A stretch of DNA of 64,000 bases from Marinicauda salina (lineage in GTDB: Bacteria; Pseudomonadota; Alphaproteobacteria; Caulobacterales; Maricaulaceae). Under the pieces are notes generated by a model. It was given only the letters and a program-made list of their open reading frames with translations, made no database searches and was not told the DNA's origin. The stretch spans positions 248,001 through 312,000 of the forward strand of contig NZ_QEXV01000001.1 of assembly GCF_003122085.1 (NCBI RefSeq), written 5' to 3'. Of this stretch, positions 1-49,713 are shown in pieces. Position numbers and translations under genes: made by a program. Each line of letters begins with the position of its first letter. The first letter of the stretch is position 1.

Positions 1-73
1 CCCGCGGCGCGTTTGCGCGCGCCGACGCGGCTGATAGGGTTAACGCCTTCGCCATGTCGAGGGGGGATACGAC

Positions 74-679
74 ATGAATGGCGTCTTCACGGTCTCGGTC
101 CGCTGGCCGCAATTCCTGGCCGGCGTCGCGCTCACCGTCGCGCTGCTCAAGGCGACGGCCTACCTGCCGCCGCAATACTATTTCCAGTTCGTCTTTCTCT
201 GGGACGTCTTCAGCGGAAACCTCGCCGGCAGCCCGGTCGATCTCGCCGTCGCCATCGGGGTGCGCCTCGCCGTGCCGGCGATCGCGGGCTTCGCCGTCGG
301 ACTGATCTCGGGCCGCAACGGCGCGATGACCGCCGGGCTGGCCGCGGCGATGGGAACGGCCGTGCTGTGGTGGCCGGTCTTCTTCTTCTGGGATTTCTTC
401 CAGTCGGCGCCCTATGTCGAGATGCGATGGCTCTTCCTGGCCATGTACCTCGCCTACACGGCGAGCTACGGGCTGATCGCCTGGTGGGCCGCGGCGATCT
501 CGAGCGGCGTATGGCGGCTCTTCCCGTCCTCCGCAGAGGAGGAGGCGGGCGGGGTCCGCGCGGCCGGCTCCTTCCTGTCCTTCCTGCACCCGCGCGTGCT
601 GATCGCCGGGGTGGCGGCGAACCTGACGGCGAGCGGCGTGGCGAGCGGAATCCTCAATGTGGCCAACGGCGGCGGCTAG
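74..679 (+). CDS. Hypothetical polytopic membrane protein
   Basis: A 201-residue protein with about five hydrophobic segments (roughly residues 10-30, 55-78, 85-112, 118-142 and 172-190), so very probably an inner-membrane protein. The segment around residues 95-112 is rich in aromatic residues (tryptophan and phenylalanine). A purine-rich ribosome site (GGGGGG) lies just before the ATG. I do not recognise a family. The gene overlaps the next one by 23 bases in another frame, which suggests translational coupling of the two. Function unknown; high confidence that it is coding because hydrophobic periodicity and GC3 bias match neighbours. Confidence 0.75.
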   Translation: MNGVFTVSVRWPQFLAGVALTVALLKATAYLPPQYYFQFVFLWDVFSGNLAGSPVDLAVAIGVRLAVPAIAGFAVGLISGRNGAMTAGLAAAMGTAVLWWPVFFFWDFFQSAPYVEMRWLFLAMYLAYTASYGLIAWWAAAISSGVWRLFPSSAEEEAGGVRAAGSFLSFLHPRVLIAGVAANLTASGVASGILNVANGGG

Positions 680-44359: not shown

Positions 44360-44911
44360 CTATTTCTTTTTTTTCTTCTTTTTCTTCTTCTTGTCTTTTT
44401 CCTTGGCCTTCGCGGCGGCCTTCTTCGCCTTCTCCTTCTCCTTGAGCGCCTCGGCCTTCAGCGTCTCGGCGTCCATGTCGATACGCCGGGAGATGCGCGC
44501 GAGCGCCTCGACGAAGCTCGTCCGCTTGTTCTTGGGCAGGGCGGCGATGATCGCCTCGTCGGCGGCCGCGGCGCCGGCGAGCGCCGTCTGATAGAGCGAG
44601 CGCCCCTCGTCGGACAGACGGATCGAGTTGGCGCGCCCGTCGCCGGGGGCCTTCTCGCGGACCAGCAGGTTCTTCTGCGCCATGCGCGAGACGAGCTCGG
44701 CGAGCGTGGAGCGGTCGATGCCGGTGACCTGGACCAGCTTCGTCTGGCTCAGCCCCTCGTCCCTGGCCACCGCGCTGAGCACGGCGAACTGGCGCTGGGT
44801 GATGCGCATGTCGCCGGTCGCCTCGGCGAACCGGTCGGCGGCGAATTGCTGGGCGCGGTGAAGCAGGTGCCCCGGCGAGGCCGAGAGGTCGAAATCGGGT
44901 TGGTCCGCCAT
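44360..44911 (-). CDS. MarR-family transcription regulator with polylysine tail
   Basis: A 183-residue winged-helix protein: helix-turn-helix region about 45-95 (with the GIDRSTLAELVSRM recognition part) and dimerising helices around it. The last 30 residues are a lysine-rich extension that ends in a run of ten or more Lys, not seen in MarR proteins generally; it is encoded by A/G-rich codons (long T-runs on the + strand at 44366-44395). The gene is convergent with ccmG (4-bp gap) and divergent from a Nudix gene; autoregulation is likely but no operator is assigned. Confidence 0.85.
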   Translation of the reverse strand: MADQPDFDLSASPGHLLHRAQQFAADRFAEATGDMRITQRQFAVLSAVARDEGLSQTKLVQVTGIDRSTLAELVSRMAQKNLLVREKAPGDGRANSIRLSDEGRSLYQTALAGAAAADEAIIAALPKNKRTSFVEALARISRRIDMDAETLKAEALKEKEKAKKAAAKAKEKDKKKKKKKKKK

Positions 44912-46048: not shown

Positions 46049-46930
46049 TCAATCGTCCTCTCCTTGGTCGGCCGCGGCGAGCGCGGCGCGCGCGGCGTCG
46101 AGATGCAGGCGTTCGACCATGCGTCCGTCGACGGACACAGCGCCCCTGCCGGCGTTGGCGGGATCGTCGAACGCGGCGACCACCTTGCGCGCCTCGGCGA
46201 GTTCGTCGGCGCTCGGCGAAAACGCCGTCCGCGCGATCTCGACCTGGGCGGGGTGGATGAGCGTCTTGCCGTCGAAGCCGAGCCGGCGGCCCTCCTCGGC
46301 CTCGCGGCGCAGCCCGTCCGGGTCCGAGAAATCGTTGAACACGCCGTCGAGCGCAACGAGCGCGAAGGCGCGCGCCGCCGCGACGATCCCGGCGAGATGG
46401 GGGAGCAGCGCCGACCGCTCGCCGTCGCAGCGGCAGCGCAGCATGGCGCACAGATCGTTGGTTCCCGCCACCAGCGCCTCGAGGCGGACATCCCGGGCGG
46501 TCTCGCCGATCCGGCGCAGGTCGATCAGCGCCAGCGGCGTCTCGATCATCGCCCAGAGCGGGCCGTAATAGCCCGACGCCGCCAGCCGGGCGTGGGCGCG
46601 CTTGAGGCCGGCCGGGCTTTCGACCTTCGGCAGCACCACGGCGTCCGGCCGCGCCTCGGCGACGGCGGCCGCATCGGCGGCGAACTCGCCCGCCTCGGTC
46701 CCGTTCATGCGGATCACCCGTTCGGCGCCGGCCTCGCGCCACGCCGCCATCGCGTCGGCCGCGGCGGCGCGCGCAGAATCCTTGGCTTCGGGCGCGACGG
46801 CGTCCTCAAGATCGAGGATGAGGACGTCGGCGCCGAGGCCGGCGGCCTTCTCGATCGCGCGCGGCTTGTCTCCGGGGACGAACAGAACGGCGCGGCGCGG
46901 ATGCGGGACGGGTGACGTGTCGCCAGACAT
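46049..46930 (-). CDS. HpcH/HpaI-family CoA ester lyase (CitE/malyl-CoA lyase-like)
   Basis: A 293-residue TIM-barrel enzyme. Motifs: VPGDKPR start (about 17), LDLEDAV (about 39-45), RMNGTE, LPKVESP with the metal-binding Glu (about 118), and DFSDPDG / HPAQVE (about 220-240). It belongs to the citrate-lyase-beta / malyl-CoA lyase group; members cleave malyl-CoA or citramalyl-CoA, a glyoxylate-linked reaction. Start at 46930. Cotranscribed with the ArsC-like gene; divergent from the kinase-DUF429 fusion (24 bp gap). Confidence 0.85.
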   Translation of the reverse strand: MSGDTSPVPHPRRAVLFVPGDKPRAIEKAAGLGADVLILDLEDAVAPEAKDSARAAAADAMAAWREAGAERVIRMNGTEAGEFAADAAAVAEARPDAVVLPKVESPAGLKRAHARLAASGYYGPLWAMIETPLALIDLRRIGETARDVRLEALVAGTNDLCAMLRCRCDGERSALLPHLAGIVAAARAFALVALDGVFNDFSDPDGLRREAEEGRRLGFDGKTLIHPAQVEIARTAFSPSADELAEARKVVAAFDDPANAGRGAVSVDGRMVERLHLDAARAALAAADQGEDD

Positions 46931-46954
46931 GGCCGGAGCGCTTACAACGAAATC

Positions 46955-48538
46955 ATGGAGATGACCACCAGACCCGCGGTCCCGCAGACCGTCACCCTCC
47001 TGACCTCGCAGGTCGCGGGCAGCCGCGTCGGCGGCGGGGTCAGCGCGCATGTCCTGACCATGGGCGGGCTGACGCCGGAATTCGTCCCCACGGTCGTGAT
47101 CGGCCGGCATCCGGGCCTCGGCGTCCCCGGCGGCGGACCGACGCCCGACGCGGTCTTCGCCGGCGCGCTCGACAGCCTCGGCGCCAACGGCAACCGGGCG
47201 CGGGCGGCGGCGATCCTGGCGGGCTATTTCGCGACCCCCGTCCAGGTCGCGGCCGCCGCGGCCTTCATCGACGCGGCGCGCGCCGAGAATCCGGACGTTC
47301 TGGTCGTCGTCGACCCGATCTGCGGCGACGGCCCGGCCGACGCCGACGCGGCGCATCTCTATGTCGATCCCGCGATCGCGGCGGCGATCCGCGATGCGCT
47401 CGTCCCGCGCGCCAACCTGATCACGCCGAACCTGTTCGAGCTGTCCTGGCTGAGCGGAACGCCGCTCGCCTCGAGCGAAGACGCGATCGACGCCGCCCGG
47501 TCGCTGGGCCGGCCCGCCCTGGTCACGTCGGCGCCCGCCGGCGAGGGCCGGATCGGCGTGCTCGCCGTCACCGCCGACGAGGCCTGGCTCGCTGAAACCA
47601 CGCGCTTCGAGACGGTTCCGCGCGGCACGGGCGACCTGCTCGCCGCGCTGGCGCTGTTCGAGCGGCTCGGCGGCGCGACCCTGAGCGAAACGGCCCAACG
47701 CGCTGCGGCGCGTTCGGCGGCTGTGATCCGGCGCACGGCCGAACTCGACGCGTCCGATCTCGTGCTCGACGCCGGCCTGTTCGCCCTCGACGTCGACCCG
47801 ATCGCCGCCCGACGGCCCGGCGCGAAGGGGCCGGCCTGGGTGATTGGGCTCGACGGCTGTCCCGGGGGCTGGCTCGGCGTGCTGATCGATCTCAACGGGA
47901 TCGAACCGCCGCGCGCGCGGCTGTTTCCCGACTTCGCATCCGCACTGGAGGCCGAGGAGCGGCCCCATGTCGTCGCCGTCGACATGCCGATCGGCTTCGA
48001 GGACGCGCCGAGCGGATCGGGCGGACGGGCCTGCGAGCGCGAGGCCCGCGCCATCCTCGGCCCGCGGCGATCCTCGGTGTTCGCCTCGCCGCTTCGACCC
48101 GCGCTCGAGGCGGAGAGCTATGACGCGGCGCTGGCGGCCAACCGCGCCGCGGGCGGGCCGGGCCTGTCGAGGCAGACCTGGAATATCATGGCGCGCATGC
48201 GCGAGATCGACCGCGCGATGACACCGATGCGCGAGGGCTGCGTCCACGAAGTTCATCCCGAGGTCACGTTCGCCACGCTGGCGGGCGCGCCGATGATCCA
48301 CGCCAAGAAGACCGCCGAGGGCCGCGCCGAGCGCCTGGCGGTCCTCATCGATCACGGCCTGCCGCGCGATCTGCTCGATCCCCATCCCTTCAAGCGCCGC
48401 GAGGCCGCGCCCGACGACCTGCTCGACGCGGCGGCCTGCGCGGTCTCGGCGCGGCGGATCGCGGAGGGCGGGGCGCTGTGCCTGCCGGCCGATCCGCCGC
48501 GCGACGCCCGCGGGCTCAGGATGGCGATCTTCGCGTGA
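46955..48538 (+). CDS. Pyridoxal-kinase-like / DUF429 fusion protein
   Basis: A 527-residue two-domain protein. Residues about 10-280 form a ribokinase-type kinase like PdxK/PdxY: Ser-Gln-Val start, Val-Asp-Pro-Ile-Cys-Gly-Asp in the middle, and the anion-hole motif Pro-Arg-Gly-Thr-Gly-Asp (about 224-229). Residues about 288-527 match DUF429: Gly-Leu-Asp-Gly-Cys-Pro-Gly-Gly-Trp (about 291-299), Ala-Val-Asp-Met-Pro-Ile-Gly, a Glu in His-Pro-Glu, and Asp-Asp-Leu-Leu-Asp-Ala; such acidic residues fit an RNase-H-like fold. Fused in one frame without a stop. Whether the two halves act together is unknown. Confidence 0.8.
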   Translation: MEMTTRPAVPQTVTLLTSQVAGSRVGGGVSAHVLTMGGLTPEFVPTVVIGRHPGLGVPGGGPTPDAVFAGALDSLGANGNRARAAAILAGYFATPVQVAAAAAFIDAARAENPDVLVVVDPICGDGPADADAAHLYVDPAIAAAIRDALVPRANLITPNLFELSWLSGTPLASSEDAIDAARSLGRPALVTSAPAGEGRIGVLAVTADEAWLAETTRFETVPRGTGDLLAALALFERLGGATLSETAQRAAARSAAVIRRTAELDASDLVLDAGLFALDVDPIAARRPGAKGPAWVIGLDGCPGGWLGVLIDLNGIEPPRARLFPDFASALEAEERPHVVAVDMPIGFEDAPSGSGGRACEREARAILGPRRSSVFASPLRPALEAESYDAALAANRAAGGPGLSRQTWNIMARMREIDRAMTPMREGCVHEVHPEVTFATLAGAPMIHAKKTAEGRAERLAVLIDHGLPRDLLDPHPFKRREAAPDDLLDAAACAVSARRIAEGGALCLPADPPRDARGLRMAIFA

Positions 48539-48579: not shown

Positions 48580-49713
48580 ATGAGCATCGAGATCCACGGA
48601 ACGGTCGCGCCCGGCTTCGAGGCCGTCCGCGACGCCTTCGCCAAAAACTTCGAGACCCGCGACGAGTTGGGCGCCGGATTCGCGCTCGTGCACGACGGCG
48701 AGGCTCTGGTCGACATCCGCGCCGGCTGGGCGGACCGCAAGAAGACGCAGGCCTGGACCGAGCGGACGATCGTCCCGGTCTTCTCCACCGGCAAGGCGAT
48801 CACCGCGCTGGTCGTCGCCTGGCTCGTCGACCAGAACCGGCTCGATTACGACGCACCCGTGGCCGACGTCTGGCCGGAGTTCGGCGCCGAGGGCAAGGAC
48901 CGGGTCACGCTCGCCGAGGCGCTGTCCCACCAGGCCGGCGTACCGGGGATCGCTGACGAGATGGATCCCGGCGACTGGTTCGAGCGCGAGACCATGGAGG
49001 CCCGACTCGCCGCGCAGAAGCCGCTGTGGGAGCCGGGGAGGGGCTCGGGCTATCACCCGATCACGTTCGGCGTCATCGCCGACGCCGTGGTGCGCCGCGC
49101 CGACGAAAAAGGCCGGACCGTGGGCGACATCCTCAAGGACGTGATCGCCGGGCCGCGCAGCCTCGACTTCATGATCGGCGTGCCGGAGGACCAGCACGAC
49201 CGCGCCGCCGAGCACGTCCTGCCGCCGAAACCGCCCTTCCTCGGCGACATGAACGACGCCAAGACGCTGGCCTTCCTCAAGCCCTGGTCATCGCCGGGAC
49301 GGCGCGGGACGGCGACCTGGCGCTCGGCCGAGCTGCCCGCCGCCAACGGCCACGGAACCGCCCGCGCGCTCGCCGACCTAATGAGCGCCTTCGCCTGCAG
49401 CGGACGCCTGCAGGGCGAGGCCTTCCTGTCCGAGGCCGTCGTGAAGGACGCGCTGCGCGAGCGCGTGTCGGGGCCGGACCGGGTGCTGCCCTTCGATCTC
49501 GCCTTCGGCGCGGGCGTGATGATCAACCGCGACAGCGGCGCGCTCGGCCCGGAGCCGAAAACGGTCGGCCATTACGGCTTCGGCGGCTCGTGCGCCTTCG
49601 CCGATCCGGCGCGCGGGGTCTCGGGGGCCTATGTCATGAACCGGCAGATGGACGTGCTCGTCGGCGACGCGCGCGCCGTCGCGCTCATCGAGGCCGCCTA
49701 CGCCGGACTGTGA
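48580..49713 (+). CDS. Serine hydrolase, beta-lactamase/EstB family
   Basis: A 377-residue class C beta-lactamase-related hydrolase without signal peptide, hence cytoplasmic. The Ser-Thr-Gly-Lys nucleophile motif (FSTGK, about 69-73) is visible, then a Tyr in the second motif (GSGYHPIT, about 160) and HYGFGG (about 331) for the third. Most probably an esterase or D-amino-acid peptidase rather than a resistance enzyme. Substrate unknown. Confidence 0.88.
   Translation: MSIEIHGTVAPGFEAVRDAFAKNFETRDELGAGFALVHDGEALVDIRAGWADRKKTQAWTERTIVPVFSTGKAITALVVAWLVDQNRLDYDAPVADVWPEFGAEGKDRVTLAEALSHQAGVPGIADEMDPGDWFERETMEARLAAQKPLWEPGRGSGYHPITFGVIADAVVRRADEKGRTVGDILKDVIAGPRSLDFMIGVPEDQHDRAAEHVLPPKPPFLGDMNDAKTLAFLKPWSSPGRRGTATWRSAELPAANGHGTARALADLMSAFACSGRLQGEAFLSEAVVKDALRERVSGPDRVLPFDLAFGAGVMINRDSGALGPEPKTVGHYGFGGSCAFADPARGVSGAYVMNRQMDVLVGDARAVALIEAAYAGL

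Follow-up and report, generated by a model that had tools for sequence, protein, structure and literature searches.

We analyzed a 64,000-nucleotide stretch of the Marinicauda salina genome, here called the window, and found a gene on the forward strand (46955..48538) that encodes a pyridoxal-kinase-like domain fused to a DUF429 domain. The explanation to which we give slightly better than even chances is that the protein is bifunctional, a pyridoxal kinase joined to a RuvC/RNase-H-type nuclease, that it derives from the fusion of translationally coupled genes, and that its two activities probably depend little on each other. As far as our searches and the accessible texts show, the architecture is on record yet unstudied; its assignment to vitamin B6 and the history of its gene order are new here.

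The fused gene and its kinase half

The gene is a single uninterrupted frame in the ORF analysis of the window, with an ATG start and 527 codons before the stop, and it was recognized by its Pfam hits and its fused homologues. Pfam assigned residues 298–515 to DUF429 (PF04250; E=1e-54, 185.9 bits against a cut-off of 23), covering positions 1–213 of the 214 in the profile and so placing the protein in this family, and residues 109–263 to Phos_pyr_kin (PF08543; 40.2 bits against a cut-off of 27). The RelA/SpoT family was absent from the Pfam scan of the fusion protein, which thus does not have the dual-domain make-up of RelZ, and among plasmid records none had at least 80% of the protein covered at one place. 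The original prediction, a ribokinase-type kinase and a full DUF429 domain within one continuous 527-codon frame, was thereby confirmed by the ORF and domain searches and by the NCBIfam and PdxK matches given below.

The kinase half (about residues 9–272; 46979..47770, forward strand) has a ribokinase fold of the pyridoxal-kinase type. Its best NCBIfam model was PRK08176 (pyridoxine/pyridoxal/pyridoxamine kinase; residues 10–272, 168.5 bits), E. coli PdxK (2ddm) matched residues 11–271 at 1.4e-33, and the structure model (pLDDT 93.9, pTM 0.89) matched S. typhimurium PdxK (5zwa, E=6.2e-22), with an rmsd of about 2 Å to PdxK chains. With both the best model and the best structure match being pyridoxal kinases, the half falls in that branch. 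The scores stay below all the NCBIfam equivalog cut-offs (168.5 against 342 bits for PRK08176, 137.8 against 292 for PRK05756, and 84.2 against 144.5 for TIGR00687, the last cut-off being passed in just 6 of 61 relative genomes), which counts against the kinase assignment in our preferred explanation.

Ser18, Gly26, Thr46, Pro53, Asp120, Asp125, Asn159, and Glu162, together with Gly224, Gly226, and Asp227 of the GTGD motif (residues 224–227; 47624..47635, forward strand), were invariant in fused (23/23), adjacent (26/26), and DUF429-less kinases (24/24), and Tyr91 was conserved in all compared kinases except one. This pattern, running from Ser18 to GTGD, is the active-site pattern of the pyridoxal-kinase branch of the ribokinase superfamily, and we take Asp227 to be the catalytic base. 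GTGD had been singled out beforehand as the kinase's anion hole, with the proviso that the N-terminal half might prove not to be a kinase by its catalytic residues; the invariance of these residues speaks for a kinase. PdxK of E. coli and Salmonella shares the fold and the active-site pattern but consists of one domain. In E. coli PdxK a Lys immediately precedes GTGD and is apparently equivalent to the PL-linked Lys233 in the title of the Salmonella entry; here Arg223 stands in its place, at a position that is variable in the family. A loop reading SNTPH in PdxK reads GRHPG here, and its G and R each occur in 22 of the 24 DUF429-less kinases. As these sister kinases have the same loop, it is a lineage trait rather than a mark of the fusion, and a fusion-linked change of kinase substrate specificity was ruled out.

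A ThiD-type identity of the kinase half was also rejected, given its score with the ThiD (HMP-P kinase) model TIGR00097 (38.6 bits against a cut-off of 204.95) and the presence of a separate ThiD-type gene. The genome has two matches to the pyridoxal-kinase model, the fusion protein and C7:133262, and the latter we assume from its ThiD motif to be the ThiD-type sequence. Genes for PdxH and PdxJ are present, with which a salvage kinase fits. Because of these genes and because the only other match is ThiD-type, the kinase half is taken, on sequence grounds, as the genome's pyridoxal salvage kinase.

A related architecture had been mentioned in a 2011 RelA/SpoT survey by Atkinson et al. In half a sentence of its accessible text, the survey names DUF429 with a Nudix or phosphomethylpyrimidine kinase domain in a handful of bacteria, by name the same Pfam pair in one protein, and assigns it to thiamine synthesis without studying it (PMC3153485); the suggestion that the combination would be new is thus not supported. 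Here, the kinase groups with pyridoxal rather than thiamine kinases, as indicated by the 168.5 against 38.6 bits and the separate ThiD-type gene. The main text of a 2014 survey of RNase-H-like proteins gives only NUDIX and RelA/SpoT as partners of DUF429 (PMC3985635), and a search of the available literature for DUF429 together with "pyridox" found no paper. Broader searches on DUF429 and on such fusions led to no relevant papers beyond those cited here.

The DUF429 half and its predicted fold

The DUF429 half (about residues 295–527; 47837..48535, forward strand) was delimited by Pfam and by a structure model. The model of residues 290–527 (pLDDT 96.5, pTM 0.93) had RuvC as its best structural match (6s16; VIA-align Z 8.8, 147 aligned residues, 3.7 Å), with a Z barely above the 7 to 8 typical of the best score for models without a clear match. 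In Foldseek the top nine rows were all RuvC, the best match being weak (E=0.023, probability 0.80). These two values argue against reading the half as a RuvC-like nuclease. The resemblance to the RuvC Holliday-junction resolvases is a match of fold: the Pfam scan gave no RuvC family, DUF429 has its own ExHPE motif, and no solved structure was convincingly related by sequence, the best matches, to plant DELLA proteins (E=0.11), being taken as chance.

In the alignment with E. coli RuvC (1hjr), model positions 5..217 correspond to chain positions 1..156. If the end points are extrapolated without a gap close to either end, Asp300 (47852..47854, forward strand), in the first strand of the half, comes to lie in the model on RuvC position 7. 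The C-terminal helix carries Asp488-x-x-Asp491 (48416..48427, forward strand), whose two aspartates by the same reading correspond to positions 138 and 141; we take these three positions to be the catalytic aspartates of RuvC. Asp343 (47981..47983, forward strand), at the end of a core strand in AVDMPIGF, is a candidate for the fourth residue of the acidic site. The predicted RNase-H fold carrying D300, D343, D488, and D491, with acidic residues on strands 1 and 4 and on the C-terminal helix, is what one would expect of an RNase-H-like nuclease. The motif on which the original prediction had drawn, Asp-Gly-Cys-x-Gly-Gly-Trp, is present as DGCPGGW at residues 300–306, and the acidic residues that it had pointed to are intact on the predicted fold. 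The model also agrees with the accessible text of the 2014 survey, which assigns DUF429 to clade D of the RNase-H-like proteins, the clade that contains RuvC (PMC3985635).

We compared 81 DUF429 sequences (23 fused, 24 adjacent, and 34 without the kinase). Asp343 and Asp488 were invariant (81/81); Asp300 was kept in 22/23 fused, 24/24 adjacent, and 34/34 kinase-less forms, and Asp491 in 80/81 overall and 22/23 fused. Both exceptions occur in L011 (genome G006), a fused homologue that has lost Asp300 and Asp491, both kept in its close relatives L035 and L036, and that represents a natural catalytic-site mutant. The kinase residues of L011 are conserved, and nuclease activity would be dispensable in its lineage. 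Glu432, His434, and Glu436 of the ExHPE motif and Arg460 were also invariant. Many polar residues besides the acidic four are invariant in DUF429, a pattern that is also compatible with an enzyme specific for a small molecule.

The only assayed DUF429 domain found in our literature search, as far as the accessible texts tell, is that of RelZ (MS_RHII-RSD, MSMEG_5849) of M. smegmatis, an N-terminal domain reported to have RNase HII activity and to cut both R-loops and RNA:DNA hybrids, the domain fused to it making (p)ppGpp (PMC7591505, PMC4429107). In isolation the RelZ domains are reported to be inactive, which argues against independence in that protein, and single-stranded RNA is reported to inhibit the synthetase half (PMC7591505). 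Compared by published description rather than by direct alignment, RelZ resembles the fusion protein in joining DUF429 to a nucleotide-using enzyme and differs in having DUF429 at its N terminus and a (p)ppGpp synthetase, rather than a vitamin kinase, as the partner. The mycobacterial RNase HI-CobC fusion (MSMEG_4305/Rv2228c) likewise joins a nuclease of the RNase-H fold to an enzyme of vitamin metabolism, and its domains are described as functionally dissociable in vivo; it differs in belonging to the true RNase HI family, in having a vitamin B12 enzyme, and in being known from Actinomycetales only, according to the part of the source available (PMC7466739). The M. salina genome has one DUF429 gene only, which speaks for our preferred explanation; it already encodes RNase HI and RNase HII, which counts against it.

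Recurrence, gene order, and history

Fused frames were found in 29 distinct assemblies (the window, L018–L036, L009, L011, L012, L173, L177, L178, L192, L197, and L203, with L197 cut by a contig end), the DUF429 tree having 32 fused rows with 3 identical copies. They form three clades of the same class: Maricaulaceae, Robiginitomaculum, and family f91. The linker is of similar length among them, with 39–63 nt between the profile hits. That an assembly or sequencing frameshift had joined two genes, homologues elsewhere being all separate, was the outcome that would have undone the original prediction, and the separate overlapping genes in G013 and G028 could be cited for it; the recurrence of the fused frame in 29 assemblies with a similar linker refutes it for the family, and we give it practically no credence. 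In a further MAG (L037) the fusion is present with a frameshift late in DUF429.

In Hyphomicrobiales and some other Alphaproteobacteria, the two genes are separate and adjacent on the same strand, with the kinase first (26 rows of the kinase tree plus L216), and these forms are 33–50% identical to the halves of the window protein. At 21 of 25 separate-gene junctions (L050 being left out of the set), the kinase stop overlaps the DUF429 start (ATG, GTG, or TTG) by 4 nt, NTGA, in register; the exceptions are L046, L081, L085, and L101. For L038–L067 the overlap was read from sequence and frame, as the profile hit began upstream of the start. Such an overlap makes fusion possible by one frame change.

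At a threshold of E ≤ 0.001, DUF429 was present in 16/61 relatives and in 44/249 genomes of the order, 49/385 of the class, and 49/398 of the phylum. Ten of the 16 relatives have the fused form and three have the kinase as a separate neighbor (G013 and G028, in which the genes overlap, and G002, in which DUF429 is split over contigs); G011, G012, and G016 have weak, distant matches without the kinase. Among the 30 loci listed for the order, 14 were fused, 2 adjacent, and 14 (L172, L179–L191) without such a kinase within about 1.5 kb, the last group being seen with about 1.5 kb per side and compared against one query set only. Among the 30 listed for the class, 4 were fused, 1 was adjacent, and 25 were unlinked. 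Given these misses in relatives, order, and class, the linkage of kinase and DUF429 characterizes certain lineages and is no general rule for DUF429. The proposal that the fusion hints at the job of DUF429 is supported only in part: sister kinases do without DUF429, and only 5 of the 30 inspected class loci lie beside this kinase.

The kinase tree (74 rows) was built by a quick method with SH-aLRT only, and many of its branches are weak; in it the fused label requires three changes, and a separate pair (L002/L003) lies inside the fused clade of Maricaulaceae, which indicates a fission there. In the DUF429 tree (125 rows) the fused forms likewise fall in three clades. Kinases of the same family or order without DUF429 make up 24 rows (L071, L075–L078, L148–L166) and sit mostly in the same slot, so the kinase does not need DUF429. 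The simplest history starts from an old kinase–DUF429 pair that fused repeatedly, visibly split again once, and lost DUF429 several times; alternatively, there may have been independent gains.

Within the window, the fused gene is flanked by a divergent CitE/RipC-like CoA-ester lyase gene (46049..46930, reverse strand; NCBIfam citE 158.9 bits, under the cut-off), conserved beside kinase–DUF429 loci, and by a downstream beta-lactamase/esterase-like (LipL-like) gene (48580..49713, forward strand), conserved in Maricaulaceae loci. The start of the citE-like gene and the ATG of the fused gene are only 24 bp apart (46931–46954), and pLDDT is <50 for residues 1–7 of the modeled protein, so translation may really begin a little further downstream. 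The citE-like gene was divergently upstream in 19/20 fused loci (L018–L037) and in 10/13 adjacent loci (L038–L051, L067; L038 and L040 have <1 kb of contig upstream). Around the 24 DUF429-less kinases, where flanks were short (1.5–2 kb), the beta-lactamase-like gene was downstream in 18/24 and the divergent citE-like gene present in 7/24. Elsewhere in the window, a gene that by eye encodes a MarR-like regulator (44360–44911, reverse strand) has a long lysine-rich C-terminal tail with ten consecutive Lys.

The neighbors in kinase-linked loci are metabolic genes, not nucleic-acid genes, which argues against a nucleic-acid role of DUF429. In the Aestuariivirga-type loci (L039–L045, L051) the operon order is FAD oxidoreductase (sarcosine/glycine-oxidase-like), pyridoxal kinase, DUF429, FolD-like gene, and PLP-dependent serine/threonine dehydratase, with citE-like and MaoC-like genes running divergently. 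The FolD-like gene, which we take to be such from its sequence, was seen in L039, and several of the other operons have a similar-sized gap at its place. In one genome (G429), DUF429 and a PLP-dependent serine/threonine dehydratase are joined in a single frame (L111, 3981–6674, reverse strand; the same gene in L082), so that DUF429 occurs in a second architecture whose partner enzyme depends on B6. Kinase-less DUF429 genes lie directly 3' of isocitrate dehydrogenase genes, of the monomeric and/or dimeric type, in the Reyranella group (L052–L066, L068, L069, L117) and near NUDIX and carbonic anhydrase genes in f6; beyond these groups, the inspected loci had no neighbor in common. A conserved partner of the kinase-less form was accordingly rejected for the loci inspected.

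Competing explanations and significance

In our preferred explanation, the starting point would be an old pair of genes, the kinase followed by DUF429, coupled by the 4-nt stop/start overlap, and a single frame slip there would have produced one protein. The N-terminal half would phosphorylate pyridoxal with MgATP, serving as the B6-salvage kinase of the genome, and the C-terminal half would cut by means of a metal site formed by Asp300, Asp343, Asp488, and Asp491, with RNA:DNA hybrids as the likely substrate by analogy with the published account of RelZ. The fusion would keep the two activities in equal amounts, and they would probably be largely independent; the DUF429-less sister kinases and the reported dissociability of the RNase HI-CobC fusion both speak against a tight link between kinase and DUF429. 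The same observations bear on a reading that we find plausible, if on balance doubtful, namely that the halves are unrelated and were joined neutrally because their genes lay side by side and overlapped. It accommodates the same-slot kinases without DUF429, the separate genes within the fused clade, and the L111 protein, in which DUF429 is fused to another neighbor, and it has a precedent in the RNase HI-CobC fusion, viewed in the accessible text as fixed by drift (PMC7466739). It is harder to reconcile with a pair kept over long distances (33–50% identity) with a conserved overlap and with fused forms in three clades, and it leaves the conserved pairing itself unexplained.

The metabolic company of DUF429 would suit another reading, unlikely though deserving attention, that the domain is a metal-dependent enzyme acting on a small phosphorylated molecule, such as a nucleotide or cofactor, and sharing a metabolic unit with the kinase, where it might, for instance, repair or remove cofactors around the metabolism of PLP, serine, and one-carbon units. 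The recurrent neighbors (FAD enzyme, FolD-like, and PLP-dependent dehydratase, with carbonic anhydrase or NUDIX elsewhere), the in-frame dehydratase fusion of L111 with its counterpart in L082, and the many invariant polar residues are consistent with such an enzyme, but the RuvC-like fold and acidic pattern and the RNase HII activity reported for the RelZ domain are not, and the neighbors vary by lineage and thus indicate no single metabolite. We think it rather improbable that DUF429 completes a B6-centered metabolic unit, as the partner missing so far beside kinase and PLP-dependent dehydratase, and that its RuvC-like two-metal site serves to process one particular nucleotide, cofactor, or RNA in functional coupling with PLP supply. 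Still less probable, in our judgment, is a catalytically idle DUF429 that regulates the kinase in response to RNA or a nucleotide. The L011 protein, in which two of the acidic four are missing and the kinase residues are kept, and the published inhibition of the RelZ synthetase half by single-stranded RNA point in that direction; against it, the fused forms keep Asp300 and Asp491 in 22/23 and Asp343 and Asp488 in 23/23, and the kinase, judging from the DUF429-less loci, presumably works in sister lineages without the domain.

DUF429 is widespread and almost uncharacterized, and its fusions and coupled pairs with an easily assayed, well-understood enzyme make its function testable, with sister species that have or lack DUF429 in the same slot providing a ready-made comparison. 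The assignment to B6 corrects the 2011 hint, as worded in the accessible text, of a partner kinase in thiamine synthesis. If the two activities are independent, the gene would be one more neutral fusion of coupled genes; if DUF429 does belong to a B6-centered unit, this would be the first physiological role outside RelZ for a large unstudied family.
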